Shown here piece by piece: positions 3,513-35,057 of a stretch of 43,365 nucleotides of DNA (position 1 is its first letter; each line of letters opens with the position of its first letter). The notes beneath the pieces are model-generated. The model saw only the letters and a program-made list of their open reading frames with translations. It ran no database searches and was not told the DNA's origin. Both the position numbers and the translations under genes were made by a program. This DNA is from a virus: IMG/VR virus record IMGVR_UViG_3300042868_005214, positions 1 through 43,365 of that record, one strand, 5' to 3'.

Positions 3513-5699
3513 ATGTCATTTTCAGCATCGACTTGTTTATCATATACAGGAACAACAACTTTAACGGAACCAATATCAATTTACACTTTTAGTGATGTGT
3601 TTATTACCGCAGTTACATTAAACCAAATAACAAATTGTCCGTTAGTTTTAACAGGAATACCTGATGGGACATCAACAATAAAGTTAAAATCAGCAAACTT
3701 TTATTGTTGTGATGTTCCTCTTACTTGTAATGACTTATGTACGACGTGTGATTTATCTTTTGATTCGTATTCAACAAGTTTAATTAGTAGAATAGTTGCA
3801 GGAAATTTAACAGGGTCTTGTCAACCAAGTATTGCTCAATATAGAATAAATTGGTTTAAAAGTCCTGATTTTACAACACCTGTATTTACATCAGGATATG
3901 GAACAGAATTTATCCCATACAATTATACACATCCATTAACCGGTGCAACCTCACCAATGACAATCGCGGGGACTTATACACCAATTATCGATAAAATAAA
4001 ATTAAACGGGTTAAATTACTCACAAACAGGTGGAACAGGATTTATTCAAGCAAACTTAGAATGTTTTAACTCCACAACCGTTGTGGTTCAAGCGTATAGA
4101 TGTGATAATGGTACCGAATCCGGGGATTATACACATAGAGTTCAGTTTTCAGGAGCATCTGCGGGAGTACAACCATTAATAATGTCATCAACTTTTGAAA
4201 TTTCTGCCGCAACCACAAATTATTTTGCATGGAAATTTGCAGGTTTTACAGTTCCTGACACTCTTACATTAACATATTATGGGTCACACTATAGTTATAA
4301 CCCAATTATTTTAGAAAAGTGGGTTGTAGGTATTAATACAGAAACCAATATTGACTTATTAACTCTCCCAAAATCAGGTAAAACACCTACTTATTTTTCA
4401 AAAGTAACGTCATTAACCTCATTAACTCGAAATACAGGTGATTATATAAAATTAGAAGTAACCCCAAATCCAAATAACAATCAAACAAATTGGGATTTTT
4501 ATTTTACGTGTAAAAATACTTTTAACTGTAACATATGTGCATACGATTATTTAAACACCCCATATAAAATAAAAGCATCATCTATCACAGGAACCACAGG
4601 TTCTTGTTCATCAATCAGTATTTCTTTTAACGTATCTGGATGTACAACAAATTCAATAGAAACTAATGATATTACACGATATCAAGCATCAGGTTTATAT
4701 AGTGTTAATAATACACAATATTATAATATATCAACAGACAATACCACACAACTACTACAAAATACTACGAGTCCATTGAAGTGGGTCTCAAATAGTTGTG
4801 GGGGAGGGTATCAAAAATACATAGAGCCACCTACTTGTTTATCACCCGCAAATACAAATACAATATCATTTCAAAAATCTAACACTGGTCCATTTGGTCA
4901 AGGGTTTGTTCAAATGAGTTTTAATAATTTAAGTGATTTTTCCGCATACTATTCATCATTTCTAAGTATTTTACCATATTCAGGAACACCATCAACACCT
5001 TCCCTTACAACTTATTATAGATGGTATGAATTATCAATACCGGAAAGAAGTGGTAGTCAAGTATGTGGGGATGGAACTAATATATTAAGATATCAATTTC
5101 ATTATTCTAGTGTATTAACAACCGGTTTTACCTCAGGAAACTATACTATAACGATAACAATGCCAACAATAACAAATGGTATGCCACCATATAATATTTG
5201 TGATGATAATTGTCAATCATATCACAATGGTGCAATCAATGATATTAATAATAGTTCGACCGGAACAACAAATGTTACAGCATTTACTTCAAATACCGGT
5301 TCTAGATACTTAGACCCTTTTGGGCGTGTATTCGTCTATTACCAAAACGCACCCGTAGTTGCTTCAGCATCAACCGCTTATGGATATTTTATGTATAGTG
5401 ATTGGTTAAACACAACAATGCCGTTTTCAGGTAATACATTACCTTATACACCAATCCCCACATTATCAGCATCAACGTGTAATAATTATACATCAGCAGG
5501 GACAAATGTTAGTTGGGGTGCCAGACAAATGTTCATGTATTATTATGACATAAAATTAACAGACCCTCTTAATGTCGAATCATATCAAATTTTGGCAAGA
5601 CCAATTATTAATGGAGTGTATAGTTTGACATACGATACAGTTGCAACGGTAATTAATGGTGTTCTCCAATTACCTACAAACCCATTATACACATATTAA
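3513..5699 (+). CDS. Large fibre/adhesin protein, copy 1
   Basis: The 728-residue product is a diverged paralogue of the 751-residue product of 7888-10143. Shared landmarks, in order, are the N-terminal module, GNLTGSCQ versus GFLTGSCQ, TYTPII versus IYTPII, a TNYFAWKF versus TNFIAWKF segment, and NxFNCNxCAY. Similarity fades in the C-terminal third, where the two differ most; in fibres that part usually contacts the receptor. The protein is rich in Thr, Ser, Asn and aromatic residues with scattered cysteine pairs, which suggests a beta-rich structure. No signal peptide is seen. It is probably a tail fibre or baseplate-attached adhesin. The assignment rests on composition, context and duplication, not on a known family. 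Confidence 0.7.
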   Translation: MSFSASTCLSYTGTTTLTEPISIYTFSDVFITAVTLNQITNCPLVLTGIPDGTSTIKLKSANFYCCDVPLTCNDLCTTCDLSFDSYSTSLISRIVAGNLTGSCQPSIAQYRINWFKSPDFTTPVFTSGYGTEFIPYNYTHPLTGATSPMTIAGTYTPIIDKIKLNGLNYSQTGGTGFIQANLECFNSTTVVVQAYRCDNGTESGDYTHRVQFSGASAGVQPLIMSSTFEISAATTNYFAWKFAGFTVPDTLTLTYYGSHYSYNPIILEKWVVGINTETNIDLLTLPKSGKTPTYFSKVTSLTSLTRNTGDYIKLEVTPNPNNNQTNWDFYFTCKNTFNCNICAYDYLNTPYKIKASSITGTTGSCSSISISFNVSGCTTNSIETNDITRYQASGLYSVNNTQYYNISTDNTTQLLQNTTSPLKWVSNSCGGGYQKYIEPPTCLSPANTNTISFQKSNTGPFGQGFVQMSFNNLSDFSAYYSSFLSILPYSGTPSTPSLTTYYRWYELSIPERSGSQVCGDGTNILRYQFHYSSVLTTGFTSGNYTITITMPTITNGMPPYNICDDNCQSYHNGAINDINNSSTGTTNVTAFTSNTGSRYLDPFGRVFVYYQNAPVVASASTAYGYFMYSDWLNTTMPFSGNTLPYTPIPTLSASTCNNYTSAGTNVSWGARQMFMYYYDIKLTDPLNVESYQILARPIINGVYSLTYDTVATVINGVLQLPTNPLYTY

Positions 5700-5702
5700 T
5701 TT

Positions 5703-6275
5703 ATGACATCAATAATCCTAAATAGTATCACAGGGTTAACTTACCCATACGATGTTTACGTATGTGATGTCTATGGGAATAATTGTGGATATATTGTTCA
5801 AATTAACACACCTGTACCAGCATCTGTAGAAATTGTATTACCAATTCCATTTGATATGGCACCCGCTGTCGGTATTAAAATTATAACCTCGGATGGGTGT
5901 GAACGATTTAATATTATTAATTGTAACTCTTTATACCCAACGCCAACCCCAACAATGACTCAAACCCCAACAAACACTCTTACTCCAACACCGACACCAA
6001 CTATAACTCCAACAAACACTCTTACTCCAACACCGACACCAACTATAACTCCAACCCACACACAAACCCCAACAAACACTCTTACTCCAACACCGACACC
6101 AACTATAACTCCAACCCACACACAAACCCCAACAAACACTCTTACTCCAACACCGACACCAACTATAACTCCAACCCACACACAAACACCTACACCGACT
6201 CCAATATATTATTTAGAACAAGCCAACGGGTTTTACATTTTACAAGCCAATGGGTCAAAAATTATTATAACATAA
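5703..6275 (+). CDS. Thr/Pro-repeat linker protein with shared N-terminal module
   Basis: The 190-residue protein has three parts. Residues 1-74 are the shared module (PYDVYVCD and a terminal Cys). Residues 79-168 are a pure Thr/Pro rod in which a 20-residue unit ([20 protein letters not shown]) recurs. A short C-terminal peptide follows with two similar arms ([19 protein letters not shown]). It would act as a spacer joining a virion-bound head to a small tip. The perfect DNA repeat under the rod (5969-6190) means its length can change easily. It starts three bases after the preceding stop and is part of the same operon. Function is inferred from architecture only. Confidence 0.7.
5969..6190 (+). 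repeat. 60-bp perfect tandem repeat coding a Thr/Pro rod
   Basis: Units begin at about 5969, 6011, 6071 and 6131. The last two full units (6061-6120 and 6121-6180 in register) are identical over all 60 bases, and the preceding one differs only in its first ten. The first unit is a 42-base version lacking 18 bases. Because 60 and 42 are both multiples of three, gain or loss of units keeps the frame and alters only rod length. Absence of silent differences indicates recent expansion or ongoing homogenisation. Confidence 0.95.
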
Positions 6276-7217: not shown

Positions 7218-7880
7218 ATGATATATTACTTTACTTCTTGCTGTGATAGAACAAAGGTTTTTGGGGTTCCAAATAACTCTAACCCGTTTGTGCCTTGGAA
7301 TGGTTTCACAGATACTGTTGGAACAACATACGGACTTGTTATTGGTTCATACTCAGGATGCGTAACATATAGTGGTAGTTCAAACACCGTTATCACAAAC
7401 CCGCCTATACCATTAAAAAACGTATCCTCAACTCCTCCAATATTTATTTCATATAGTTGTAATCAATGTATTATTTTATTTCCTTGTTATACACCACCCG
7501 TTGTTGTACCCCCTACAATCATAGGATATCAAAACGAATGTGGAATTGTAACAATTTTACCAATGAGTGTAGTATGTGAAAGTTCTCCACCATCAGTTTG
7601 GGGTCTCGAAGATGGCGAAGTCTCGGTATCAATATCGGGAGGAACCGCCCCATATACCGTCACTTGGTTGAATAACGGAAATGTCTCACCAGCACTTGAA
7701 ATGGTTGGAAATGGTTCATACACCGCAACTACGGTTGATTTTTATGGTGATTACACGGCAACAACAGTTTGTGAAATATTCACACCAAAAATTTGCACGT
7801 TTGGTGCTAGTATAGAAGAAACTTTTGTGGAAGAATGTCTTCCTACGGTAATGTCCGGATACACATTTGATATAACTTAA
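7218..7880 (+). CDS. Fibre protein with one SprB-like repeat
   Basis: The 220-residue protein has a cysteine-bearing N-terminal part (residues 1-115) and then one SprB-type repeat at about 125-185. The hallmarks of the repeat are visible: EDGEVSVSISGGTAPYTVTW, followed by a GSYTATTVD turn. SprB repeats form chains of beta domains in the mobile gliding adhesin of Flavobacterium. Here a single repeat sits in a phage virion cluster. The C-terminus (MSGYTFDIT) resembles the end of the 2421 product. It is the first gene of the second cassette and precedes the 751-residue paralogue by seven bases. An attachment role is inference. Confidence 0.7.
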   Translation: MIYYFTSCCDRTKVFGVPNNSNPFVPWNGFTDTVGTTYGLVIGSYSGCVTYSGSSNTVITNPPIPLKNVSSTPPIFISYSCNQCIILFPCYTPPVVVPPTIIGYQNECGIVTILPMSVVCESSPPSVWGLEDGEVSVSISGGTAPYTVTWLNNGNVSPALEMVGNGSYTATTVDFYGDYTATTVCEIFTPKICTFGASIEETFVEECLPTVMSGYTFDIT

Positions 7881-7887
7881 AACATAT

Positions 7888-10143
7888 ATGCCAACAACAT
7901 TTTCAGCAGCAACCTGTCTAACATCAAGTTTCGTTTCACCGGGACCATTTAACATCTATTTAACCGATGATTATAGTTCAACACCCTTTAGTTCTGTAAC
8001 AAAAAATCAACTTACAATTGGATGTCCATTTATTTTTAGTAATATTCCTACCGGAACAACCACCCTTTACTTAAAAGATGTTAACTTACTTTATTGTTTT
8101 ACAATACCTGTTAGAGATAACAACATATGTCAAACTTGTAATTTAGGATTATCTAACTATTCTGCAACAACAATAACAAGATTGTCTTGTGGTTTTTTAA
8201 CAGGGTCTTGTCAAAATATTACGGACTATGTTATTCATTGGTATGGTCCAAACGATACAACAACATTACAAAAAAGAACCGGATTTGGTTCAGTTTTTTC
8301 AGGACAATACGATATTCCCCACCCATTTTTGGGCATATCTTCTATACCTTTACCCGAAGGTATTTACACCCCTATTATTCAAAAAGTAATTGTAAGTGGG
8401 TTAACTTTTTCAAACACAGGTGGGACCAATAGTATATTGTTTGATGGTAATTGTCTTCCAACAACAACAATACAACCATTAACTTGTTTTAATCAAACTA
8501 ACACAAAAACTGAATATTGGGCTAGCGGTTATAATCATAACATTACATTTAGTTCACAAAGTCAAGGAATACCTCAACCAGTTTCATCAACATATGTGTT
8601 GTCTCCAACCACAAATTTTATTGCTTGGAAATTTCAAGGTAAAGCGAATCCGGATACAATTAAATTATCATTTAGAGGTAGTAGTTATCTTAATGATATT
8701 GGATTGGAAAATTGGGTAATTGGTACAAATAGTTCCAACGCATATACTCCATCTTTAATCTCTAAATCAGCCGCAACCGCAAGTTATTTTACAAAAATAA
8801 CTTGTTTAACAGGATTAACAAGAAATCCCGGTGATGAAATAATTATTGATGTAATCCCCGCAGAAGCAAATACTGATTGGGACTTACTTATAACGTGTTT
8901 AGATAACTTTAATTGTAATAGTTGTGCATATACTAACCCATACAAAATTATTGGTTCAACAATAACAGGAATTACAAATAATTGTAAAATAAACGTAAAG
9001 TTTACAGTGTCCGGATGTTCTTCAAATACTTTATTTAGTGAGGATTATTTTAAGTATTACGATACCACCGAACTGAATGGTGTTAGTACATTATTTCAAG
9101 ACGCTCAACGTATTTTATCACAACAACAATTTGGAGGTACATTTAACAATATTAGATACGCAGACACAAATGGTAATTTACCATATGATAGTGCCGATTT
9201 TTATTATAATAATAAAGTTTGTACTTATGATTTTCAATATCCTCAAGGTGCCCTAACTAGTTGTAAAACAGACCCAAATGATATAACTTACAAAAAAACA
9301 TTTTTAACTGATGGTAGCAATAGAGGAGTGTTTAGCATTACCGGTTCATCAACCGTAATATCAACATTTTACGATTCTTGGATAGCCGCCATCAACCTTT
9401 CAAACTCATTAGGATATAACCCTAATAACACAAATTTGGGGTATTATAGATATTTTGGTTGGTATTTTCCAAAAACGAATCACCCACATGCTTGTGGTGA
9501 CCAAAGTGGTACAAACGCGGCACTAATTCACCCATCATCAACGGTATTAACCGGGACAACATCAGGCGGAAATTACTTTTTTAATATAACCGCAAATACA
9601 ATCACAAGCGGATATACCATTTCTACTTGTGATATCGATTGTGTATCACGTATTAGTGGGGTATTATCGGTTGTTAACGATTCTTCAACCGGGAATACAC
9701 AATTTAATCAATACTTTTCTGCCAATACAAGTTTTGGTTGGTATGGTATCTATTATGCCCCCGTATTTGAATTTTTATATTATATCACAGCACTCACAAC
9801 CACATTTTCAGCACAAACAATAGGAGAAAAAATATTTACCAATGATTGGTCAACAAGTACATACCCATATTCAGGAACATCACCTTCAATAATACCATCA
9901 TTATCCGGTTCTGTATGTAACTTTAATAATCTTGGTTCTGAAGGGTCTTTTCAAGGGGGTTTCTACAACAACACATTATTATGTCAATATACAACATTAT
10001 ACCCTAATTCTGCCGATACTAGTAGTTTTGAAATATGGGCAACCCCAATTATTAATTATGTTCCAACACCGCCAGATGTATTAGCATACAGATATTCAGG
10101 TGGAAATGTTACATATTCATCATCAACATATATAATCGGATAA
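7888..10143 (+). CDS. Large fibre/adhesin protein, copy 2
   Basis: The 751-residue protein is the paralogue of the product of 3513-5699 and matches it along roughly the first 370 residues (shared module with PFNIYLTDD, GFLTGSCQ, IYTPII, NFIAWKF, FNCNSCAY). The C-terminal halves share only scattered patterns such as HAxGDQSG versus QVCGDGTN and the ISTCDIDC versus YNICDDNC segment. This layout suggests gene duplication followed by divergence of the distal part. The protein is beta-rich by composition and lacks a signal peptide or membrane span. Together with copy 1 it may form two alternative or co-assembled fibres. No named family is recognised. Confidence 0.7.
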   Translation: MPTTFSAATCLTSSFVSPGPFNIYLTDDYSSTPFSSVTKNQLTIGCPFIFSNIPTGTTTLYLKDVNLLYCFTIPVRDNNICQTCNLGLSNYSATTITRLSCGFLTGSCQNITDYVIHWYGPNDTTTLQKRTGFGSVFSGQYDIPHPFLGISSIPLPEGIYTPIIQKVIVSGLTFSNTGGTNSILFDGNCLPTTTIQPLTCFNQTNTKTEYWASGYNHNITFSSQSQGIPQPVSSTYVLSPTTNFIAWKFQGKANPDTIKLSFRGSSYLNDIGLENWVIGTNSSNAYTPSLISKSAATASYFTKITCLTGLTRNPGDEIIIDVIPAEANTDWDLLITCLDNFNCNSCAYTNPYKIIGSTITGITNNCKINVKFTVSGCSSNTLFSEDYFKYYDTTELNGVSTLFQDAQRILSQQQFGGTFNNIRYADTNGNLPYDSADFYYNNKVCTYDFQYPQGALTSCKTDPNDITYKKTFLTDGSNRGVFSITGSSTVISTFYDSWIAAINLSNSLGYNPNNTNLGYYRYFGWYFPKTNHPHACGDQSGTNAALIHPSSTVLTGTTSGGNYFFNITANTITSGYTISTCDIDCVSRISGVLSVVNDSSTGNTQFNQYFSANTSFGWYGIYYAPVFEFLYYITALTTTFSAQTIGEKIFTNDWSTSTYPYSGTSPSIIPSLSGSVCNFNNLGSEGSFQGGFYNNTLLCQYTTLYPNSADTSSFEIWATPIINYVPTPPDVLAYRYSGGNVTYSSSTYIIG

Positions 10144-10146
10144 TTT

Positions 10147-11442
10147 ATGAGCACAGAAAAATATTACACAATAAAAATAACGGGGACAACGTCATCACCG
10201 GGACCATACACAATTTATCTTGATAGTGTCTTTGGAACCGTTGCAACACTTTATCCTGTTGCCGCCCCAGCAACAGGTTTATCATTACCTTTATTACAAG
10301 CGGGCGTAACAATAAAAACTAACACCACACCAAACTCAATTTTCCTTTACAATACGTATTGTGGTAACAATTTATCATTATTACCACCGGTGAATATTAC
10401 TTATAATCCATTCTGTTTATCATTTGAATCTAGTTATTTAGGAACTGTTGTACATAAAACTTTCATACCAAATGGTTTAGTTGGTGGATACCCTTCTTGG
10501 AAGGATAATGAATTGAATTCAACAATTACAATCACTTGGGACGCAACTCTGAACCCCGCTAGATTTGTAATAAATAATTATCAACCGGGGGGAACAGGTA
10601 ATGTTATCTCATCAAAATATCCAACTAACTCAACATCAAACCCACCAAGTAATTGGCAGAGTGTTGGGGGGGTTTCAGTATACTTTACCCAAACTTTAGG
10701 TAATTGTCCCGTAATACAACAAGGTAATTTTAGAAGAAGTGTAAACCAACCTACGTGTATATGTGACGGTAGTATTATTTTTAATGTTGATTTAGATAAC
10801 CCACCTTTCAGTTATTCAATTGATAATGGTGTAACCTATTCATCATCTCCAATATTTACAAACCTTTGTAGTGGAACTTATATTTTAGCAGTTCTTGATT
10901 CAATTGGGAATGTTCATTTAAGTACGGAAATAGTAAAAACTGAAATCCCATCAACAACGTATACAATATCTCTTTACACAACTAATACAAAACCGGTTAA
11001 CAATAATGTGTCGTTAGCAAATTCATATCAAACAACAGTAGTAGTGAACCCACCGTTACCTAACGGAGCAACAATAACTTTTGATTTAATACATAACAAT
11101 AATTTCTATTCATCACCTAATAGTGGAACATCAATACTAACCACTTCAACATTATTATATAAAAATGGTGATGAAGTATTATTAACAAGCACTTCAAATA
11201 GTGTTAATCAATCTGTTAATACCGCCGCAGGATGTCAAACGGATTATGTTTACCAATCAAATATTAGTGATGTTTGGAGTTCATTAACAATCTCTAATAG
11301 TGATACAATAACAATCTCTACATCATCAAGAGTTGACAAAACAACAACAGGAAAATGTGTTGTTGGATATAGTAACGATAACTACTCAATTAGTAATCCG
11401 GTTATTAGTGGATGCGATTGTTGTTCAATAATTATTAACTAA
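10147..11442 (+). CDS. Fibre protein: shared module plus SprB-like domain
   Basis: The 431-residue protein begins with the shared N-terminal module (GPYTIYLDSVFG, then a Leu-Pro strand and Cys). A middle segment at about residues 199-256 resembles one SprB-type unit (CDGSIIFNVDLDNPPFSYSI and then CSGTYILAVLD). The remainder is Thr/Ser/Asn-rich beta sequence ending in a cysteine cluster (GCDCC). It starts three bases after the previous stop, so it is translated with the large paralogue. A virion adhesin role is likely from context. The SprB assignment of the middle unit is weaker than for the 7218 and 14533 products because the glycine turn is missing. Confidence 0.65.
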   Translation: MSTEKYYTIKITGTTSSPGPYTIYLDSVFGTVATLYPVAAPATGLSLPLLQAGVTIKTNTTPNSIFLYNTYCGNNLSLLPPVNITYNPFCLSFESSYLGTVVHKTFIPNGLVGGYPSWKDNELNSTITITWDATLNPARFVINNYQPGGTGNVISSKYPTNSTSNPPSNWQSVGGVSVYFTQTLGNCPVIQQGNFRRSVNQPTCICDGSIIFNVDLDNPPFSYSIDNGVTYSSSPIFTNLCSGTYILAVLDSIGNVHLSTEIVKTEIPSTTYTISLYTTNTKPVNNNVSLANSYQTTVVVNPPLPNGATITFDLIHNNNFYSSPNSGTSILTTSTLLYKNGDEVLLTSTSNSVNQSVNTAAGCQTDYVYQSNISDVWSSLTISNSDTITISTSSRVDKTTTGKCVVGYSNDNYSISNPVISGCDCCSIIIN

Positions 11443-13896: not shown

Positions 13897-14496
13897 ATGA
13901 AAAAAACATTAAAAGAAAGCCCTAAAGTTTTAGGGCTTGATGTATCAACCAAAACTATTGGTTGGGCATTATTTGACATACAAAGTAGAGAATTATTAGA
14001 ACTAACCCACGTATCACCAACACCAAAACCAAAGGAAGATAATAAAATAAAAGAACTACTTCTTAAAGGTGAAATCTTTAGAACCAAACTTTTAGAGTAC
14101 AAAGATATGGGTATCACTAAAGTTATTATTGAGGAACCTCTATTAAACTCAAATAACGTCTATACAGTCCAAACTTTATTAAGGTTTAACACATTAGTCA
14201 CAAAAGAAATTTACGACGTTTTAGGGGTAGTTCCTGACTTCATATCAACATATAACTCTCGTAAGTTCGCCTTCCCCGAATTAGTTAAAGAAAATGATAA
14301 AGGTAAGTTTGTTTTATTTGGTGGTCTACCAAAAGACATTGATAAAAAACAAATCATATGGGAATTAATAGCCAAAAAAGAACCCCAAATCACTTGGCAA
14401 TACACAAGAAACAACACTCTTAAAAAAGAGAACTTCGACCAAACAGACGCTTATTGTTGTGTCTTAGGTCATATGAATCAAGAAAATTTATGGTAA
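13897..14496 (+). CDS. RuvC-like Holliday junction resolvase
   Basis: The 199-residue protein has the RNase H-fold resolvase signature: GLDVSTKTIGWAL near the N-terminus with Asp15, IIEEPLL with Glu79/Glu80, and a C-terminal DQTDAYCC helix with Asp181 and Asp184. These acidic residues would bind two metals and cut four-way junctions. T4 itself uses the unrelated endonuclease VII (gp49); RuvC-type enzymes fill that job in several other phages. Cutting of recombination junctions before packaging is the likely task, which suits its position at the end of a late fibre operon. A strong terminator follows directly. Confidence 0.88.
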   Translation: MKKTLKESPKVLGLDVSTKTIGWALFDIQSRELLELTHVSPTPKPKEDNKIKELLLKGEIFRTKLLEYKDMGITKVIIEEPLLNSNNVYTVQTLLRFNTLVTKEIYDVLGVVPDFISTYNSRKFAFPELVKENDKGKFVLFGGLPKDIDKKQIIWELIAKKEPQITWQYTRNNTLKKENFDQTDAYCCVLGHMNQENLW

Positions 14497-14532: not shown

Positions 14533-17500
14533 TTAACAGAATGGGTATATACAACCTGCAGTAAATGTTGAGTAGTTACTATCAATAACATTACCATTTA
14601 ATAATGTTGCCGATATTCTTATTCTATAATTATGAACCGGATTTGAAGGTGGACAAGGTCCATTCCATCCATTAAAATTATCACCTGAACCATAATCTGT
14701 TGGTTGAACATTACCACTATTCCAATTACCATTTATAGGTATGTTTAATTGGGTCGGGTCAATATCCGTCACCCACCAATGGATGAAATATCCATCAGGA
14801 CTACTACCTGAAGCATCTATATCTTCACAAAGTATTTCATAACTCACAACATTTGAAACATCGAACGAATTTAAAATCCAATTCATCTCAGGAGAGTCAT
14901 TAAATTGGTAACAAAACGATGAATAATACGCTGTTGGAATAACATTTCCTTCAGTATATGTGTTACTGTATAATGTTATTGATGGTTCTCCCTTTTTACA
15001 AGTTGAAAAGATATCAATGTTGTATTGAGTGGTTGATTTTTTATCACACCTAACCGTATACACAAAACCAATTTCACTATTACTACTTGTTTGAGAAAAT
15101 ACTGATGCTCCATTATACGTAACATTTAAAGTAACCACACTATTAGTTACATTTGGTGTTAATACAATTTTTACAACGTCACCCTCATTTGTACCTAAAG
15201 TACTAATAAATACATTAGCGTCAAAGGTTGAATCAAATGAATAGATTAAAATATCATTAATATATATATTACCACTTGCGTTAGACCTAGCACAATCACT
15301 CCAATTTCTTAATTTAGTAGGACAGTTTGATTTAACAGGAACAATAACAGTATCTAACAGTTTAACACATTCTTCACAAGGTTTAACCCCATCACTACCT
15401 GTATATATTGTTGGCGACACATCGTCAAACCAATTATAATCATAAGTTGTTCCACCCCAATTGTTCTCTAATTGAGCTAAATCACTAGAAATCTCTTTCA
15501 ATTCCCAACAAAGTTTATTTGTAAAGTCCAAAATAACACCACCAACAACGTTACCCGGAACCGCAGGAACCGGTTGAATAACTACAGTAGTTTTATTCGG
15601 TCTTTCTCCGCATATTAAATAAGCGTAATACGTTTTCTTAGAAGACGGTGTTGGAGTCATTGTCATTGTTTGAGTTGGGGTTTGAGTTTGAGTTGGAGTA
15701 TTTGTCGGAGTTTTAGTTGGAGTCTGAGTAGGAGTTTTAGTTTGAGTAGGGGTTTGAGTATTTGTAGGCGTAACTGTAGCCGTATTTGTTGGTGTTGGTG
15801 TTGGAGTTGGAGGTATAGACCCAATTGTTGGTGTTTGACTTGGAGTATGAGTTGGTGTTTGTGTTTGAGTTGGCGTATTTGTCGGAGTTTTAGTTGGTGT
15901 TTGAGTTTGGGTAGGCGTAACTGTCGTAGTATTTGTAGGAGTAGGTGTTGGTGTAAGACAACCAAATTCACATTCAATATCGTAATCAATTCTCATTTTA
16001 ATTAAAACATTAGAATTATGTAACGATTCCGGTTCACAATTTGTTGAGATTGTTATTTCATTTGTTAATGGATTAATATCAACATTTCCCGGACCAATTT
16101 GAGGGCACGATTCAATCAATGATGCGATTGTTGAGTACCATAAATTATCTGAAGGGTAATCCTGCAATGTAGACCCTGTATAGAATGTTGCGGAATTAAC
16201 ACAGTCACCAATGACTGTTGACGCTGAGAATATTGTTTGAGTTAAAAGACAATTTTCATTCCCTATAATTAATTCGGCATATCCCTCATTTAAATATTGT
16301 CTAGGACCTGAGTAAATTTTCATAGGTTTGTTTAATTCACCTAAACAAACATTAGAATAACCTACTTGGTTTTCGTAGACTTTATCTCCCCTAATACCCA
16401 TTCTTTTCGCTTTTGAACACCCTGAACTATCTACAATTCTAACCTCATAATCACCCGGAGGTAAATCAGTTATTTCCATAACAGTAGTTCCAACAGTATC
16501 TCCATCAAAATATAATGTAAACGGTGGTGTCCCGTTTGTTATATAAGATGTTAACGAACCATTACTATTAATAGAGTCAGTACTTAATAAATGAAAATCA
16601 ATAGTATTTGAACCATCAATGGTAAACGGAGATGATTGATTACATAACAATGCGTCTGTCACATTTGCAATATAATTACCTGAAAATAAATTAGTAAAAG
16701 TGTATGACGTAAATGAAGTTGATATAGATTTACCATTAATTGTATACAAATAAGGTGGAGTTCCACCTGAAGTTATTTCCAATTTAACCGACCCATCTTT
16801 TCCGTTACAAGTTGTTCCGGTTGTGGTAACTGTTAAATCATACACAACATCATTATTAATGACGTAAGTCCCCATAAATACACATAAAGCAGAACCTGAA
16901 TCAGATACTGTTAATGAATATGTTCCTGACGATAAAAAATCAAAAATCCAAGTACCACTATCTGATGGTGTTTGACTGTCTGAATTACCGTCAGAATCTG
17001 TTAAAGTAAATGTATAAGGAGCAACCCCACCAAAAACTTGAATAGGACCTATTGCTCCTGATGAATCATTACACTTTGAGTTTCTTGTATTAACAGAAAC
17101 TGTAGATATCCCCATAGGAACTTGTAGAGTAACTGTTGCTGTAAACGTACATAACCCGGCATCAGTAACTTGAATTGTAAATCCTCCAGCACCCAATCCA
17201 CTAAAGACAACAGTTCTGTCAAAAGTAATATTTGTTACACCATTTGACCCTAAGTAATAAAATGGTGGTGTACCGCCGGTTATAGTTATACTAACTTCAC
17301 CATCACTACTAAAACAAGTCGGTTGTGTTAAATAAGCAACACCAAAACCAACGGGTTCTATTTTACCAACAAACCCACTTTTACTTATACTACATCCTGT
17401 ATTATCTGTAACTGTCACAGAGTATGTCCCTGTCGATAAATTAGAAATAGAATCCCCAACACTACCGTCAGACCATAAATACGTATATGGTGGGTTACCT

Positions 17501-18105
17501 GTTAATCCTGAAATAAACATTTTTCCGGAATTAACTGCACATCCCGCATCGTTTACAATGTAGAAACCATAATCAATTGTTGTTGAATTTTTAATAATAC
17601 AAGTCTCAGACTTCCCGGTACAACCACCTCCGTCATCAGCAATCACATAATAAGTTCCATAAGGTATTGTTGTGAATTCAAATGTGTTTGAATATGATGC
17701 CCCTGAGGATACAAACCCTGTTGTATTATTATATAAACTAAAAGTTGATATATCATACGCATTAATTGTTGACGCAATTAGAGAACCATTATTGAACCCA
17801 CATAATGTGTTGGTTGCTGATGTTATTGTAACACAGGTTCCACTAGATATAATAATATTTACCGGTAATATTGTATTGGTTGGAGCACAACTATCAATAA
17901 TGTTGAATGAATACGTTCCTGCGGATAAACTTGTTGCGTTATATGTTGTCGCGCTTGGACCTAATGAAATAGTTGTTGCCGATGGTGATAACCATTGGAT
18001 GGTATAATCAGGAGCTTCACCAATAATATCAATGGTGAACGAACCTGAATTAGTATTAGCACAATCTCCTGTTATACTAGCGTTATATGTTAAATTACAA
18101 GGCAT
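14533..18105 (-). CDS. SprB-repeat virion adhesin with Thr/Pro stalk
   Basis: The 1190-residue protein has about seven tandem SprB-like units in residues 1-575, each near 75-80 residues and carrying DG or SG, then GGTPPY, then GTYxVxVxD and a Cys. The clearest are at 183-250 ([26 protein letters not shown]), 258-330 ([15 protein letters not shown]) and 425-495 ([16 protein letters not shown]). A linking region follows, then a Thr/Pro stalk at 718-822 and a 365-residue C-terminal domain with further beta strands. SprB repeats are known from the surface adhesin used in Flavobacterium gliding. There is no signal peptide or type IX sorting domain, so it is not itself a host-type secreted adhesin. 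It is the last gene of the minus-strand late operon. A long host-contacting fibre is likely. Confidence 0.82.
15640..15954 (-). repeat. Degenerate Thr/Pro-coding repeat
   Basis: This segment codes residues 718-822 of the SprB-repeat protein. [18 protein letters not shown] unit occurs twice (near residues 736-752 and 795-811), with the intervening [11 protein letters not shown] break. The DNA units are similar but not identical, unlike the perfect repeat at 5969-6190, and lie in inverted orientation to it. Confidence 0.85.
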
Positions 18106-18108
18106 TTT

Positions 18109-21100
18109 TTATTGTGGACAAGTTATATTAAAGTTTATTCCTACATTTATACTTATAGTTGTATTTAGTGGAGAAACAGAACAATTTATGTTCCATATCT
18201 TAACTTTTGTTGGTGGTGAACCTATTTCATCATTAACTGAACGTTCATAACGATAATCATACCCCATTAATATTAAAGTAGAAAGACTATTATTTAACGC
18301 TGTTTCCCATGCAGATACACAAGGCATCGCATCACTACAAAGGTAACCAACCGGGTTTGAGTATCCTACCCCATCAAAGAACACATCTTGAATAATATTA
18401 GTTCCATTTATACTTATGTCAACAAACCATTCACTAACAATTGTTCCGTCTCTATAACACGACCCAACATCTATTCCATTATCGGTTTCCCACTGATTAA
18501 TAACATCACTAAAAACACCACTAAAACTATCAAATTCCATTACATTTTCCGGATATCGATTACATAAGGTATACCAAACATCACAATTAAGTTGATAAAC
18601 ACTACCCGTGAATTTACAAGGTTTACAAATAATTGGTACCAACGCACACCCTCTTTGTCTTCTCCAAACAAATTTTTGTCTATGAAAAATAGAATTCTCT
18701 AATTTAACACCCGTATTCCAAATTGTAGTTGCCGGAATCATTTGTTCAACTAATCTAATCCAATAATCACCCATACCTTCAACATACTCAATCATTGTTT
18801 TGTATGTGAAGTTATCATTTGGAATTCCAGCTAAAGATTCTGATTGTAAATAATTCCAATATATTGATGATAACGTTGGATATCCACTTGTTCCACCATC
18901 TGTTGCAAATTGTCTATTTCTAACATTAATTGTGTTTTTCCAAAATGTTTGAGCAAACTCAAAAAAGGTTTCTTTCCTTGGTTGGGGATTAATAAGGGTT
19001 GAGTCAACACCACCGTTATGTGGATAAGACGATACCGGATTAGGGTTACATCTTGTTGGTGCAACATAACCCAAACCTTGATTATTAATTGGGAAGTTGT
19101 ATTGTCTTGACATATACCAAACATCGTAAGATAATCCTTGAGAGGGGTTTAAGTATAAATCAATATTTTTAACATTAATAACTAAACCTTCTGCCCCAAC
19201 ATTATATAATGCGTTATACCCACCATCTAAATTATTTCTATCCCCAATTTCACTATCAACCCACGTTTTATTGTTATCTACGGCTGTTCTTATGTTATAA
19301 CCTAAATCAGTAAATGGGAATGATTTATATACATTCAAATATTCTTGCCCATAAGTAAATGGAGCTAATTTTGTTTGATAATTAGGATTTGAACCTGTGA
19401 ACACACTATTAGTTAAATCCGGTTGTTCTAATGACCTATGTTTTGGTGTTGATTCAAACCAACCAGCACCCATCTGATAAAAATATGTTTCAGAATTACC
19501 CGGTGACATAGGATATCCACTATCACTAATTGGATAATCTCCTTTACTTAAATCAACTTCTTGAAGAACTGATGTTGTTGTAAAACCAGAATATTGAACC
19601 CCTTGTATATTGAATGTATATCCACTCTCTAATGTCGGTAATGTTTTAGAATATGTTCCACCCGATATTTTAGCATATTGAGAGTCGAACTCTGACATAT
19701 TAATTCTTTGGTCAGCTAAACAAACATACTCATTAAAATCAATTAAAGCGTCCGGAGCACCAATTAACCTCATTAAAGTTTCTATGGATTTTCTAGTCCC
19801 TTTTGATTTAAACAAATAGGCGGAATTAAGAACTAAATTCTTATAATATTGGTAGTTTAACTCGTCAGGCGTTTGAGACTGTCCTACACCACTAAAAGCG
19901 GATTTATCAACATTCTTTTGACCAAATACCGAACCTAAAAAGTCCTCGTTAGTAATTGGGGACATATTTGTCGCCCAACCTAATGTTTGTGATAAATTTT
20001 TTAGTAATTGAGACGGAATATCGTTTCCGGTGTTATAATTCACCGAATTCATATAAGCTAAACCATTAATGAATTTCTTAGTTTCATCAAAACTTCTACC
20101 GTAAATTTGTAATATTTTTTCAATTTTTTGGTCAGAGGTGTCAAATTCTTTAAGTGAATCAGTTGTTAAAAATCTTGAAACAAGATTTGTTTGATATCCA
20201 TCAAAAGACAAACTAATCTCATTTAATGTTGTTAAATATATTGTAAAGGAATTGGTTAATATATCCAAATTCCAATTACCATATAACGGCCAAGTCACTA
20301 ACTTATTTTGAATATAAAAAGTTCCATCATCGTTTTCATTTGGAACTTGGAAAGTTGCTGTATAAATAGGAACAACATTTCTATTTAATAAAAATCGTTG
20401 AACTTCATCCAAATCCTCATTAAGAACTCTATTAACCTGATAATCATTTGGTCTAATAACTAAATCATCTTGTGTCTGAGTTTGACCCGGAAAAACATCA
20501 CCTTTAAGGTATATTCTAAGGGTTCCTGTAGTTGATGACGTTGTTGGCTCAATATGAGTAACATCAAATCCAACACCACCATAATATAAGGAGTATTTGG
20601 CAAATTGATTTGTCATATTTCTTAAAGGAGAAACTTGAATCTCTCTTAGTTCTAAATTTCTAGTTGCGTTAACAGTAAAATCAATATCAAAAGGGTTTCT
20701 AATTCTTGAAATATCTAAATCAATACTTGTTTCATTAACTATTGGATTATATGAAATGTTTGTCGCAGTAGCTCCGGTTAAATAGTTTTCATCCATAAAA
20801 GTAACCTCCAACGCTGCCGGAAATTTACTAATAATCATTTCAACCGATGTTGAAATTCTTTTAACCATTGAACCGTATGATGTAAAATTAGTTACTTCAG
20901 TTAAATCAAAATTAGGATAAACTTTAAAATTGTTTTCAAATATCACCTTTGATTGAACAACACTATTAACCCCCATACTATCTAAGTTAATAGGGTTTGA
21001 GAATGCTCCTGTTGTAAAAGTTCTATTTGATTTTTCCTTAACTCCTCTAGTGAACTCAAAATTTCCTTGCGTCAATCCACCCCCCGCAACAAGTTGGAAT

Positions 21101-21174
21101 CCAACTAAATTATCGGAGAATGTACCTGCACCGGATGCTGTCTGTGGTGGACACGTAAATTTTTCTATTGCCAT
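18109..21174 (-). CDS. Large baseplate/tail protein, P2 gpI-like segment
   Basis: The 1021-residue protein ends three bases before the SprB-repeat gene. Its N-terminal 340 residues are beta-rich. Residues about 341-480 are helical and include LVLNSAYLFKSKGTRKSIE followed by IGAPDALI, which resembles the 'K-G-T-x-x-[SG]-[IL]' helix pattern of tail protein I family members that attach fibres to the baseplate. The C-terminal region contains Cys and Trp-rich strands (CKPCKFTGSVYQLNCDVWY). Its place immediately upstream of an adhesin gene agrees with a fibre-anchoring role. The gpI resemblance is short and I hold it as moderate. The virion role is more secure, given the operon. Confidence 0.6.
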   Translation of the reverse strand: MAIEKFTCPPQTASGAGTFSDNLVGFQLVAGGGLTQGNFEFTRGVKEKSNRTFTTGAFSNPINLDSMGVNSVVQSKVIFENNFKVYPNFDLTEVTNFTSYGSMVKRISTSVEMIISKFPAALEVTFMDENYLTGATATNISYNPIVNETSIDLDISRIRNPFDIDFTVNATRNLELREIQVSPLRNMTNQFAKYSLYYGGVGFDVTHIEPTTSSTTGTLRIYLKGDVFPGQTQTQDDLVIRPNDYQVNRVLNEDLDEVQRFLLNRNVVPIYTATFQVPNENDDGTFYIQNKLVTWPLYGNWNLDILTNSFTIYLTTLNEISLSFDGYQTNLVSRFLTTDSLKEFDTSDQKIEKILQIYGRSFDETKKFINGLAYMNSVNYNTGNDIPSQLLKNLSQTLGWATNMSPITNEDFLGSVFGQKNVDKSAFSGVGQSQTPDELNYQYYKNLVLNSAYLFKSKGTRKSIETLMRLIGAPDALIDFNEYVCLADQRINMSEFDSQYAKISGGTYSKTLPTLESGYTFNIQGVQYSGFTTTSVLQEVDLSKGDYPISDSGYPMSPGNSETYFYQMGAGWFESTPKHRSLEQPDLTNSVFTGSNPNYQTKLAPFTYGQEYLNVYKSFPFTDLGYNIRTAVDNNKTWVDSEIGDRNNLDGGYNALYNVGAEGLVINVKNIDLYLNPSQGLSYDVWYMSRQYNFPINNQGLGYVAPTRCNPNPVSSYPHNGGVDSTLINPQPRKETFFEFAQTFWKNTINVRNRQFATDGGTSGYPTLSSIYWNYLQSESLAGIPNDNFTYKTMIEYVEGMGDYWIRLVEQMIPATTIWNTGVKLENSIFHRQKFVWRRQRGCALVPIICKPCKFTGSVYQLNCDVWYTLCNRYPENVMEFDSFSGVFSDVINQWETDNGIDVGSCYRDGTIVSEWFVDISINGTNIIQDVFFDGVGYSNPVGYLCSDAMPCVSAWETALNNSLSTLILMGYDYRYERSVNDEIGSPPTKVKIWNINCSVSPLNTTISINVGINFNITCPQ

Positions 21175-26001: not shown

Positions 26002-29000
26002 TTAATTTATAACGTTACTAGTGTTTATCCATTTTGTTCTAAATCTATCAAATGCCGACGCTCCTCTTCTAAGTCCAAAATAAAAGTGAAATGGCGCTCC
26101 GACAGTAATCAAATCTGTTTCAGGAGTATTTTGACTCCAATATTGTGGTTTTGCAGTTATTGAGTTATTTTGGTAAGTTGGTAAACTATTCCCATTAGTG
26201 ACTGCGTATATGTAACCTTTAAAAAAGTCATTTTGTGACTGATTAGTAGTTCTAAAATATCTAGATACCGGTAATAACCTATCCAAAGATTGATATTTTG
26301 AAGAAAAAATTGTTTGAAAATCCCAATCATTTGATTCACCACCAAAAATACTTCCCGCATGCTCACCACCACCATCAATTCTCCATTGTGATAATGGAAC
26401 TTCTTGAGAATAAACTGTAAAATTATTAAATGTACAAATACTTGATGTTGTCCCTGTTGGATTTATTATTGTTCTTTTTGGTGAAACATAATCTCTAATT
26501 TGAGTATCCGATGAAAAGAATATTCCCAAAGAATTCTTACAATCAAAGAAAATAGGGTTTTGAATACCAGGGTCAACCAATGCTGTTCCTGTACCTGTTC
26601 CGGGACCTGTTGCGATAAATGTTGTTGTTCCCGCAACGTATCCCGGAGGTGCTCCAATCGACGTAAAATCTGTTGGGTTAGAAGCCGTTCCACCCGACAA
26701 AATTTTATATCGAATACCTGTTACAAAACCACCCGCACCTACCGTTGTTGGTGCATCAGGATAATTCGACGATTGGAATGCTGCAACACCTAATTCAGAA
26801 TTAATTGAAATTAATTGAGAGTAATCAGCATCAATTAAATATTTCCCTTTTCTACTATTTTGAAAATACGCAAATATGTTAAACGCCCCTAACAAATTAT
26901 TTAAAAAGTTATTATCCATAAATCTACTTATAATAAATAAATTAAGGATTTCATCAACGTGAGAATACGTTGAACTTGTTAACTTATTAACCAAGTATCC
27001 GTCATACTCGTCAGACATCACCAATTCTTGTAAAAAGTCCGCTCTAGGACCCAAATCCATAATTGTTGTTGGATACTTTAGGTCAGCACTAAATTCACCT
27101 GAATTGGAGTCATAAGGTGAACATCTATAATAAAAACTTCTAGATGGATTATGATACATAATAACACTATTACATTTCTTTCCTTGCGGAAAGTTTGGTG
27201 GATTTGATGTTGGAGAACTAAACCCACTAATCTCATTTTTAAATGGAAAAGCATATAATACTCCATTCACCCAATTATTATTAAATCTGTGAGAAAACAC
27301 ATTTCTACACGCACCAAGCATCACCATATTTCGAGCAATCCATTCAAACATTAATTCCCAATCTCTAAATAAAGAAATAAATATTGTTGTAATAAAGACA
27401 TAACATCCACCCACAAAAATCGTTTCACCCTCATATTGGAGACAATCACCACCTCTCGGTCTTACGAATATAGTACTATTTACAGGACTTGGAGTACAAC
27501 CATAACAGTCCAAATTAACGGAACCAGCACAGGTAAAAGTGTTTATAACTCGATTTATTTTTGGAGAACCAACTAAATCTTCCCTAACATCATCTAAAGA
27601 CCCGTTACCAAAAGACCCTGTTGACCCCGCTATTGAATTTATCCCGATTACACCTGTCGAAGGTATTAAATACAACGTTAATTTACTGTTTTTTTGTAAA
27701 ACACGTCCATTACAACAGTATTCCTCAACAACAGTCCCTGTCGGTAATCTATCGCCTCTCATAACAATTTGATTATTACTAGCACCAGAATAAGAACCAA
27801 CCCTACCTAATGTAAAATTCATAGTATTTCCCGTACTATAGATTGGTGAATAATAATACGTTAAAACTCGAGTTGGAGGAAATCGATAATCACCGTACTG
27901 ATACCAATATGGAGTATCGGATGGGTCGAAATTAAGGGAAATTCTTAAATATTGAATGTCCATGAGCATCATTGATGCTCCCTCAACAATCTCATTAGGA
28001 ATATATCCTTCAGTCCTACCTGTCACATTATAGACACTTGGATTATCTGGAGTAGGTACCTGCATATAACAGTAACCATTAAAATCCCTTATCATCCCAT
28101 AAGGAGTGTATGTATACGCTTTAGTAAAATCATTATTTAAACTTATTCGTAAACCAAATGGTGAAGAACTTGCACCATTACTTACGGTAGGTGTATTCGG
28201 ATAAGCTCCATTTGATAGTGAATCATCACTTGTTTGAGTTGTCCCACGTAAAGGTTGTGCGTTTTTACAACTTGGTGCGTAAAATAGTGAACGATTATCT
28301 AAGTTAGAATAATAACTAATTAAGTTTGAATTAAACCCTGAGAATCTAGATGTCATTTGCGTCCAAGTAGACGCTGTCACTCCCTGAGTATAACCTGTAA
28401 CAAATTGCCAAGTTTCTTTTTGATTAGGACAATAAGAAAATGAGTTAAAATATAAATTTTGTCCAATAGCGTACCCTGTTTCAGTATTAATATTTCCACC
28501 TACCGTTGGTTGGATTCCACCTACCCAAGTAGCCCCTGTCACATAATTTGGTGTGCTACCAGTTGGTAATGGTGTCCAAGCAGGTAATGGTGTTGTAACC
28601 GCCCTTTCATTACCATCGTGACTAATATTTAAAAATTTACCCTGAATCGGAATATTCATTCTATAGTAACCACTAATCTCAACATCACTTTCATTTTGAT
28701 GTCCAAAAAGTTTACCAATACCATATTTAATTGGTATTTTACTGGTATATGGGTCAACACCTCTATTTAATATCACAACAACGTTTTCATTACGGTTTCT
28801 AACATAATTCATCGAATCATACTTTTGAACTCCAAAAGGTATTGGGTCTGGATGTGTGTTACCATTAGGTCGATAATAACAATTTGGGTTAAAAATAGTA
28901 CCCGTCCAATCCCGTCTTCCTCCATTAATAGTTGAGAACAATTGAAACAAAGTCGACTCATTTCTGAAGTATTTTTTATTTAATGAATTAGGTAAAGTAT

Positions 29001-32682: not shown

Positions 32683-34521
32683 TCAAGAGAAATTAACCGT
32701 TTTTAAATTTTTAACTCTAATGTTTATATCTTTGTTTGCATATTTTATTTGGTAAGTTTGGTTTGGTTCCGCAAAGATTGTATCATCAATTAACCCTATC
32801 TGATAAGTTGTACTGTCAATATATCGTTGAGATGTTTGAGATGATGAATACTGTCCACCAACTTTATTAAAGACTTGAATATCGGATAATGAAATTACCC
32901 CGTTTTCACTTTGTATTAATCTTCTTAATTCAGAAATATTAACATTTTCACCCATTTGTCTATTTTCCGGATTAAAATATTCCGAAACAATCGTAATGAT
33001 TTGAGAAATAACTGTTCCTTGGTTTTGTGTATTATCTAAAACAACATCAATATTAAATCCTAAATCAATAACGTTAGCACTTTGTATTGACACATAATCA
33101 TTTATCATACGATAGTTTGATAAATAATTTGCAACATTATTCTTTAAAGTGTTTGAAATTACCTCTGTTAGTCTACCTGTTTCATCATACGACAACATTT
33201 GGACAATAATTTTATTATTGTTTTCCGTTATTGATACTTTTGCCGGAGCTCCAAATTGTGAAGGCATTGTTCGGATTATTGAATCGTAATCATTTACGGT
33301 TACCGCTCTTTTTTGTGATGAGAAATTATATGAAACTAAATTTCTAACTTCTTCAGTTGTTGGGTAATTAGCTCCCCCAATCGCTGCGGTTACGTTTGTA
33401 CATCTTAATGAATTTACTACAGTTGTGTTAATACTATCTGATGGTCCGTTCACAAAGAATGATACTGTACCTATTTGAGTAATTGAATTTACACCAATAT
33501 TACTACCTACACCACCACCAACTCTATATTGTATGAATAGTGTTGTATTTGGTTTTAAAGTACTACCTAACGCTAAGTTGTTGGAATACTTATATAGATT
33601 TAATTGATAACCATCTCTTGCAAACTCTCTTAACTGTTCGTCCGCAGATTGTGAACCACCCCCAAAAGTAATTTTTAAAAATCCTTCAGGTGTAAATTCA
33701 CTAATAAACTTAGTACTTGTTTGAATGTATTTCCCCACTTTAATCCCCGGAGAATCCGATACTTTTGTTGGGTCTTCTACAAATACTCTATCTTCCGCCA
33801 AAGCATCCACTTCATACCATCTATTATCTAACCCTAAGAACTCCTGAACTGACGGTATATTAGTATACTGTGTACTATCTTTCAACAAAACACTAGTTAT
33901 ACCCAATACATTCTTGTCCGGTAAAAATAATTCATAAAAAGGTCTAACATCATTAGGTGTTATTACTTTTTTAAACACTTTTGTTGTTCCATTAACAACA
34001 GTTTCTCGTTTAGTAATTGTATAGTTTAATAATTTATTATTTGAATCAAAATTAGGTATTTTTAGTCTATTTGGAAAACCTTCACCATTAATAGGTGATG
34101 AGAAATCAATATCATATACAGTTTCAAAGACTTGTCCGGCACCATTAACTTGTGACCCTCTTCTTAGAATACCACAATATCGTAAATCTTCTTTATCCCC
34201 AAAAGCAGGAACTGTAATTGAAAAATCAACTAAAGCAACCGATGGTCTCATACCCGGAACTTTTAATCCATAAGTTTTTGCTATATTAAAAACTGACGAC
34301 CTTTGTTGAGCATATTGAAGAACTGTCTCTTGAATACTTCTATCAATGTTAAATTGTAAGTTATCCGTTACCGCAGCGTTCAAATCTAATAATACAGAAA
34401 AAACAGACGCGTCATTGAAGTTTTGAATCGTGTCCGGATAATACGTTTTAGTGAAGTTAATTAACTCAGTTCTGATTGATTGGAAATCCCTTGTTGTGTA
34501 GGAAATTTTCTTGTTTGCCAT
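32683..34521 (-). CDS. 6: Baseplate wedge protein gp6
   Basis: The 612-residue protein matches T4 gp6 (P2 J-like family). It opens with ISYTTRDFQSIRTELINF, then a FNDASVFSVLLDLNAAVTDNL helix and the NIDRSIQETVLQYA-type motif that marks these wedge proteins, and ends with the ring-forming C-terminal region (FNPENRQMGENVNISEL, then a VISLSDIQVFN strand). T4 gp6 is slightly longer (about 660 residues). In the virion it forms the inner ring of the baseplate with gp25 and gp53. It follows gp25 after a four-base gap, the same order as in many T4-like phages. Confidence is high. Confidence 0.93.
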   Translation of the reverse strand: MANKKISYTTRDFQSIRTELINFTKTYYPDTIQNFNDASVFSVLLDLNAAVTDNLQFNIDRSIQETVLQYAQQRSSVFNIAKTYGLKVPGMRPSVALVDFSITVPAFGDKEDLRYCGILRRGSQVNGAGQVFETVYDIDFSSPINGEGFPNRLKIPNFDSNNKLLNYTITKRETVVNGTTKVFKKVITPNDVRPFYELFLPDKNVLGITSVLLKDSTQYTNIPSVQEFLGLDNRWYEVDALAEDRVFVEDPTKVSDSPGIKVGKYIQTSTKFISEFTPEGFLKITFGGGSQSADEQLREFARDGYQLNLYKYSNNLALGSTLKPNTTLFIQYRVGGGVGSNIGVNSITQIGTVSFFVNGPSDSINTTVVNSLRCTNVTAAIGGANYPTTEEVRNLVSYNFSSQKRAVTVNDYDSIIRTMPSQFGAPAKVSITENNNKIIVQMLSYDETGRLTEVISNTLKNNVANYLSNYRMINDYVSIQSANVIDLGFNIDVVLDNTQNQGTVISQIITIVSEYFNPENRQMGENVNISELRRLIQSENGVISLSDIQVFNKVGGQYSSSQTSQRYIDSTTYQIGLIDDTIFAEPNQTYQIKYANKDINIRVKNLKTVNFS

Positions 34522-34525
34522 AATT

Positions 34526-34984
34526 TTATATATTAATAATTACAAAGTCACTACTATTAAACACATCATTGTTGATGGTGTAATCAATCTTAACTTTCGC
34601 TGTATGTTCTTTATTCGACATATTTGGTACCCGAAATATTCTCTCATCGTTATCATTTATATAACTACCTTTATCTTCACTACCCTCTGAGGCGGCTTGG
34701 ACACTAATGTTAGTTATTGTTATCCCCGGTAAATAGTTTCCCGCGGATTCTCGTATTTCAGATTCTATTTCTGAAAATGTTGGACCATCTAATGGTTCAA
34801 AAATAAACTCATATAATCTTGTCCCAAAATCCGGTAAATAATATCTACTACCTTTTCTTGTTAATAAAAGGTGTATTAAGTTAGACCTAATCTCTTGGTC
34901 ATTATAATCTGATAAATCTAAGTATTTCCCATCAAAAGATTCTCTGAAAGGAAAAGTTAAACCATATGTTGTTCCATCTGCCAT
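34526..34984 (-). CDS. 25: Baseplate wedge protein gp25
   Basis: The 152-residue protein belongs to the GPW/gp25 family: GLTFPF near the start, DQEIRSNLIHLLLTRKGSR, then LPDFGTRLYEFIFEP. In T4 it bridges gp6 and the tail sheath start in the wedge. I start it at MADGTTYGL (ATG 34984-34982) and not at the in-frame upstream ATG at 35041. The longer form would add 19 residues, run across two TATTTATA motifs and begin inside the downstream flank of the nrdA terminator. It is the first gene of a late operon with gp6 and the hydrolase. Confidence 0.92.
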   Translation of the reverse strand: MADGTTYGLTFPFRESFDGKYLDLSDYNDQEIRSNLIHLLLTRKGSRYYLPDFGTRLYEFIFEPLDGPTFSEIESEIRESAGNYLPGITITNISVQAASEGSEDKGSYINDNDERIFRVPNMSNKEHTAKVKIDYTINNDVFNSSDFVIINI

Positions 34985-34987
34985 AAC

Positions 34988-34995
34988 TATAAATA
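34988..34995 (-). promoter_or_regulatory. Candidate late promoter motif, proximal
   Basis: TATTTATA on the minus strand, three bases before the gp25 ATG. The same motif recurs 27 bases upstream (35015-35022), so this one may be a duplicate or an initiation-related copy. Confidence 0.45.
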
Positions 34996-35014
34996 TAGTG
35001 TCGTAATTATTTCT

Positions 35015-35022
35015 TATAAATA
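35015..35022 (-). promoter_or_regulatory. Candidate late promoter motif, distal
   Basis: CTATTTATA on the minus strand, 30 bases before the gp25 ATG and just after the terminator at 35036-35057. The terminator-then-motif layout is what a late promoter restarting transcription would look like. Confidence 0.6.
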
Positions 35023-35029
35023 GAGTAAA

Positions 35030-35057
35030 ATAAAAAATCACGACCGAAGTCGTGATT
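35030..35057 (-). terminator. Intrinsic terminator with UUCG loop after nrdA
   Basis: On the minus strand a perfect nine-base stem (AATCACGAC and GTCGTGATT) closes on a TTCG loop and is followed by TTTTTTATTTTA. The C(UUCG)G tetraloop is known to be very stable. It lies 24 bases after the nrdA stop and ends the replication/nucleotide block before the late gp25 operon. Confidence 0.92.

Follow-up and report, generated by a model that had tools for sequence, protein, structure and literature searches.

What use does a virus make of a long array of SprB-type repeats, the domain type of the Flavobacterium gliding adhesin SprB? The question is raised by a gene in a viral record of 43,365 bases (IMG/VR record IMGVR_UViG_3300042868_005214; this whole stretch is called the window), which a first-pass annotation had described as encoding about seven SprB-type repeats in residues 1 to 575 followed by a Thr/Pro stalk. 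The gene was searched with Pfam, PHROG and a phage-record collection. Frame 1 of the plus strand contains many stops between its ends, and the open reading frame (ORF) lies on the minus strand (Table 1). Its product matches the Pfam SprB repeat (PF13573) with 70.4 bits (E 9.2e-20), well over the curated cut-off of 28, so that the profile check proposed for the repeats came out in their favour. The match marks five stretches, two of which exceed the cut-off singly, and the repeats number exactly seven; the stalk was found as described. The PF13573 search gave no match in 14 control genomes, and PHROG returned weak matches only for the array product and the product of the gene at 7218 (E 0.0018 or worse). 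Within U7, residues 530-558 narrowly pass the cut-off of the PEGA family (21.3 versus 20.8 bits).

An AlphaFold2 model of residues 1-712 has a mean pLDDT of 83.3 and a pTM of 0.35, and the orientations of the domains in it are unreliable because of the latter value. Residues 1-575 consist of strands only, with no helix, and are followed up to residue 712 by an alpha/beta domain; by family profiles and model, residues 1-575 are predicted to be seven beta-sandwich units. Among solved structures, the best three Foldseek matches are chains of the Aureispira protein GhpA (9flp, 9fly and 9flw; E 2.7e-20 to 2.3e-18). VIA-align returned many Ig/FN3 chains with Z-scores of 9-11, which points to Ig-type folds and nothing more specific. 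In BFVD, two phage proteins that already carry the label SprB were found, A0A6J5LD72 and A0A6J5LDA4; the former, of 714 amino acids, aligns over 725 columns with the 712-residue model (34% identity, E 7.5e-64, TM-score 0.49).

Table 1. Features of the window; residues are numbered along the array protein and positions along the window.
Feature	Residues	Position	Strand	Remarks
Array gene: seven SprB-type units, Thr/Pro stalk, C-terminal tip		14533..18105	-	1190 aa
U1	1-90	17836..18105	-	Weak PF13573 stretch at 17983-18063, 16.4 bits; beta domain
U2	91-175	17581..17835	-	Beta domain in the model; family profile; without Pfam match
U3	176-250	17356..17580	-	PF13573 17.7 bits, below cut-off; frequent best match of cellular units
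U4	251-330	17116..17355	-	PF13573 35.3 bits, above cut-off
U5	331-421	16843..17115	-	PF13573 24.0 bits, below cut-off
U6	422-501	16603..16842	-	PF13573 31.9 bits, above cut-off
U7	502-575	16381..16602	-	Without Pfam SprB match; profile against cellular SprB-type units up to 53.8 bits
Shoulder, alpha/beta domain	576-712	15970..16380	-	Probable counterpart at the C-terminal end of the upstream protein
Thr/Pro-rich stalk	713-835	15601..15969	-	Variable in the family; short tandem DNA repeats
PEBP-family (YbhB/YbcL-like) tip domain		14608..14913	-	C-terminal; PF01161 47 bits, cut-off 24
Conserved operon neighbour		18109..21174	-	1021 aa; immediately precedes the array gene; putative tail role, from the operon
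Baseplate wedge genes, gp6-like and gp25-like		32683..35041	-	PHROG 219 and 261
Protein with one SprB unit		7218..7880	+	220 aa; PF13573 28.9 bits, cut-off 28
Protein with one weak unit-4-like domain		10147..11442	+	431 aa; family unit-4 profile

The array belongs to a widespread family. Relatives of the upstream operon gene were present in 298 of 301 pattern-matched viral stretches, and the best 80 of the 298 were used as loci. In 75 of these, the array gene follows next on the same strand, with a similar N-terminus as read by eye, and a one-base overlap between its start codon and the upstream stop codon occurs in 46 of the 75; the remaining five contigs stop inside the upstream gene. PF13573 was detected at E 0.001 in 74 of the 80 records, above the cut-off in 71, and the six misses are the five contigs that end early and one in which just 142 residues of the array protein are encoded. 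Scanning with the array alignment confirmed at least 564 of at least 597 viral stretches. All complete copies scanned with unit profiles (70 of 70, four of them second loci of contigs already counted) have the units U1 to U7 in this sequence, without an eighth. Because the profiles derive from 42 members of the same family, a match as such is given by construction, but the order and number of the units do not follow from it. Over a compared length of 23,570 bases, a contig of 272,437 bases shows no difference from the window, which is therefore probably a fragment of a jumbo-size genome.

Clustering of the 71 complete copies, window included, at 90% gave 42 representatives, in which the length of each unit varies by at most seven residues. 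Like units of different phages are 47-62% identical, whereas unlike units share 25-36%, both between and within proteins (200 random pairs); averaged over the representatives, pair identity is 46-61% for the units, with 61% for U1, and 43% for the shoulder. Since like units are closer than unlike units across phages, the array is old and fixed. In a tree that combined the units of six diverse phages with 83 comparison units, taken from cellular proteins and from the huge phage LR756502.1, the seven units form seven separate clades with support of 0.85-0.999. The smallest split that holds all phage units also takes in 37 comparison units, with a support of 0.79 against a tree median of 0.80, and the tree as it stands does not demonstrate that all phage units share one origin. 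A recent capture of a piece of host adhesin was considered and rejected, as unit i lies nearest to unit i in distant phages and none of the cellular proteins compared has U1 to U7 in colinear order.

Judged from gene order, the array gene is part of the tail operon: it lies on the same strand as the baseplate wedge genes and keeps the same neighbour. The upstream protein has no match in Pfam, PHROG or the phage collection, and its structure model (mean pLDDT 47.6) is too poor for placement in a known baseplate. When the C-terminus of this protein was compared with the shoulder by hhalign, the probability was 92.6% (83 columns at 16% identity; E 4.6e-7, counted as one comparison), against 0.2-2.8% for the shoulder in six control pairings. 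Single-profile searches within the window see the same link weakly (E 0.0012 in one direction and 0.027 in the other) and list three further proteins at borderline values of 0.06-0.1. When both profiles were run against all 80 loci with a limit of E 0.1, the only ORFs that they matched were the array and upstream genes, as identified by start position; neither gave a match in 12 comparison proteins, eleven cellular and one from a huge phage. Attachment to the baseplate is thus proposed from gene order and from a shoulder domain that plain profiles see weakly. A profile of the upstream protein, run without a positive control, had no match in Flavobacterium phage immuto, LR756502.1 or LR756508.1. 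The wedge protein of immuto and LR756508.1 is about 27-28% identical to that of the window phage, and PF13573 found nothing in these two. The host is probably a member of the Bacteroidota, an assignment based on the domain family and on the distant wedge match to Flavobacterium phages, a match which wedges of other phages share as well.

Two other genes of the same strand were noted. The product of 26002-31656, a tail-operon protein of 1884 amino acids without Pfam or PHROG match at E 0.01, contains long hydrophobic segments that resemble several membrane helices by eye, which is unusual for a tail gene. Between this gene and the gp6-like gene, positions 31725-32651 encode an alpha/beta-hydrolase-like protein of 308 amino acids with a hydrophobic N-terminus, whose Pfam matches are all under the cut-off.

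Behind the shoulder, the protein family becomes variable. The aligned stalk region measures 3-177 residues among the 42 representatives, a rough value since the borders follow the window protein, and by a simple filter the Thr/Pro stalk is absent from 10 of the 42 copies. The C-terminal region, with equally rough borders, spans 0-492 residues at a mean identity of 23% and is shorter than 50 residues in five copies, and another fibre may serve copies with short ends or without a stalk. The window protein ends in a PEBP-type domain, which was absent from the first-pass description of the gene. This domain matches 1fux, E. coli YbcL, with an E-value of 1.8e-7; against the YbhB/YbcL subfamily model TIGR00481 it remains below the cut-off of 57.75 bits (35.0 with the entire protein and 37.3 with its C-terminal part). 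The histidine of the first PEBP motif is kept in five of the six ends that fit a loose motif pattern. Among the matches listed, the phage-tail literature seems to have taken little notice of tail-operon proteins that end in a PEBP-type domain. Of the 42 C-terminal modules, 37 were scanned, leaving aside five with less than 60 residues: PEBP (PF01161) was found in five, Fib_succ_major (FISUMP) in one and a DUF in one, and at least 30 of the 37 have no Pfam match at E 0.01, so that the tip role of most modules is assigned by position. Three modules match PHROG 5139, for which no function is annotated, and this domain type is therefore already present in phage proteins. Ends also differ between close relatives. 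In 30 of 82 close pairs (array identity above 60%, one or both ends 100 residues or longer), the C-termini can be aligned over less than 60% of the longer one; in the pair L029 and L068, arrays of 84% identity carry C-termini that are 94% identical, but across only about a quarter of the longer.

Units related to those of the array occur elsewhere in the window. The single unit that had been claimed for the 7218 product is confirmed narrowly; the one called probable in the 10147 product is recognized by the family unit-4 profile (23.3 bits for this gene in near-identical contigs), but Pfam has no match for it at E up to 1. Of 49 loci that extend past the array by more than 5 kb, 44 contain at least one further ORF with a unit-profile match (E 1e-3) within 10 kb after the array, on either strand, and the region after the array (loci L007-L086) reads as a changeable cassette of unit-bearing ORFs. 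Other plus-strand genes of the window were noted as well. The products of 3513-5699 and 7888-10143 (728 and 751 amino acids) look like paralogues by eye and have no Pfam or PHROG matches. A Thr/Pro-rich protein is encoded at 5703-6275, where 3.2 copies of a 60-base repeat with 97% match (6005-6194) likely form a site of length change. A RuvC-like resolvase gene (13897-14496; PHROG 159, E 9.3e-6) is located between the plus-strand fibre-like genes and the array gene.

A genome scan for cellular relatives gave 19 loci, all with Bacteroidota-type titles. Eleven of them were inspected and contain large ORFs with signal-peptide-like and T9SS-like ends as judged by eye; the ORF ends of L098, L101 and L110 are cut by the stretch. 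The two best-scoring cellular matches, L112 and L096, both carry type A T9SS sorting domains by profile (two of two tested). L101 is an F. johnsoniae ORF of 5431 or more amino acids, followed by a gene of the PorP/SprF family (TIGR03519, 236 bits; cut-off 90.55), and is most likely SprB itself, judging by this context. The unit profiles match it at 51 places, mostly weakly, with a best score of 50.5 bits; together with PF13573, this bears out the assignment of the units to the SprB repeat family. Cellular units are best matched by U3, U7, U6, U4 and U5, seldom by U2 and never by U1. As the first-pass annotation had stated, the window protein lacks a type IX sorting domain: none was detected at E up to 0.01, nor in any of the family's 37 C-terminal modules scanned, while the same library gave matches in the L112, L096 and L094 proteins. 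In a crude hydropathy scan of N-termini, the phage proteins reached a maximum of 1.79 (median 1.15, n=42) and ten comparison proteins with an N-terminus 1.43-2.97, a range that overlaps the phage values. L094 derives from LR756502.1, a 642-kb uncultured huge phage, where a SprB-repeat protein of 1670 amino acids (L094:12784-17796) shows 14 PF13573 matches in frame, a type B T9SS sorting domain (50.1 bits, cut-off 35) and, by eye, a signal-peptide-like N-terminus. Unlike the array gene of the window, this record thus seems to encode a complete exported adhesin.

Taken together, the array protein probably is a tail fibre (or whisker) fixed to the baseplate or its vicinity in a large phage that has a baseplate of the contractile type and probably infects Bacteroidota. 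This reading is based on the position of the gene, the constant units, the likeness of the shoulder to the upstream protein and the variable end; a conserved proximal part next to a variable distal part is, as far as genes can tell, the pattern of a fibre, and we infer a location in the virion, as a predicted part of the tail. Seven SprB-type domains would form a rod of constant length, which the N-terminal part, the shoulder or both may hold on the tail, and the exchanged C-terminal tip could provide a contact that differs between hosts. Trimerisation is usual among fibres. The SprB family was probably recruited long ago from Bacteroidota surface proteins, and the units would then have diverged within the phage lineage. 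Of the earlier proposal that a host adhesin fold was turned into a fibre, the SprB family and the operon with the baseplate wedge genes speak for the core. Whether a long-ago uptake of SprB domains, a frozen seven-domain ruler rod and borrowed tips (PEBP, FISUMP and others) belong to one and the same family history is a more tentative matter, which we regard as possible but doubtful; if true, the fibre would be built of host-protein domain types, apart from a phage-specific shoulder.

Other functions were weighed against the fibre. The SprB/Ig domains could serve surface retention, keeping the virion on glycans, biofilm or particles in places where hosts live instead of acting in infection, a role that has been proposed for Ig-like proteins of gut phages, and several matches would suit this: the best solved folds are those of the Aureispira grappling-hook protein GhpA, the family profile picks out, if weakly, PDB entries of phage decoration proteins and neck whiskers (E 8.8e-4 and 1.2e-3), and modular BACON/PKD adhesins of predicted Bacteroidota phages are reported to bind epithelium (PMC13370021). 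However, the array gene directly follows a conserved baseplate-operon gene, and a constant number of units with changeable ends suits a rod with a receptor tip better, so that retention is an unlikely main role. Still less probable is a display of the array protein on the surface of infected cells, for example to exclude other phages. Its cellular relatives do look exported, with sorting domains by profile in L112, L096 and the LR756502.1 protein and by eye in others; however, the 37 C-terminal modules hold no sorting domain, hydropathy gives no clear signal peptide, and the gene is co-located with the baseplate operon. We consider this very improbable.

The reading from which the analysis started, that the units mimic SprB and bind the host gliding machinery or its adhesin track, has a background in the literature: phages can adsorb by way of gliding proteins, with SprB and RemA as possible receptors (PMC13288928), and the receptors of F. 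columnare phages are described as likely parts of the gliding machinery (PMC7345892). The repeats are also true members of the SprB family, with the unit-profile matches in the likely F. johnsoniae SprB. However, in a sample of 41 genomes of one Bacteroidales order, 30 carry SprB repeats, 29 of them above the cut-off; the sample was centred on a genome chosen for its SprB repeats, without which the count is 29 of 40 (E 0.001). The order sampled is not known to glide. Being common there, the SprB domain is therefore not a marker of gliding, and the label 'SprB repeat' should not be equated with it. In addition, the best cellular matches are not Flavobacterium SprB-like, the cellular proteins compared lack a colinear array, and it is the array that is conserved and the end that varies. 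The special link to gliding was thus not upheld, mimicry of the host gliding adhesin is unsupported, and we judge this reading improbable. For the tail fibre favoured here, the choice of receptor is more likely located in the tip, because the array is constant and the end variable; studies of host range should look to the tip and treat the seven units as its scaffold.

Among the matches listed, the open-access literature on SprB and phages describes no SprB arrays in phage tails, and in the phage-record collection the array was matched at E 1e-5 by LR756502.1 only. Within the reach of these searches, three features are new: an array fixed at seven units throughout the family, a shoulder that resembles part of the upstream protein, and ends that can be exchanged. 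For neither the array nor its neighbour did the phage collection contain an annotated relative, and what was a single gene becomes a family-wide, testable phage part.

Several known systems resemble parts of this design. Aureispira GhpA provides the best solved-structure fold matches, but it is a cellular protein of 5898 residues, and the likeness holds at the level of domains only because TM-scores for the whole array are 0.16-0.18. A0A6J5LD72, from an uncultured Caudovirales phage and labelled SprB, is a relative of the whole array and shoulder; however, its recorded length leaves no room for a stalk and tip. The SprB adhesin and other SprB-repeat proteins of Bacteroidota share tandem PF13573 repeats and detectable unit homology with the array. 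In contrast to the phage protein, the cellular ones tested (L112 and L096) have a T9SS sorting domain, and the likely SprB shows 51 matched places, whereas the phage protein has seven units and a shoulder that was not found in the 12 comparison proteins. The Ig-like BACON/PKD adhesins of gut phages are modular as well and are encoded near structural genes, including in a myovirus group; they differ in being described as binding epithelium, and the main text of that study does not mention SprB (PMC13370021). The closest parallel in architecture may be drawn with the BACON tandem repeats of crAss-like and other gut phages, which are reported to be tail-associated and to have arisen by domain duplication or transfer, the crAssphage array being distinct from bacterial domains (PMC6949934). 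Like the array described here, they are tandem copies of a domain known from Bacteroidota within tail-associated phage proteins (de Jonge et al. 2019, PMC6949934); however, they belong to another domain family, and here the same seven units recur in all 70 copies scanned.
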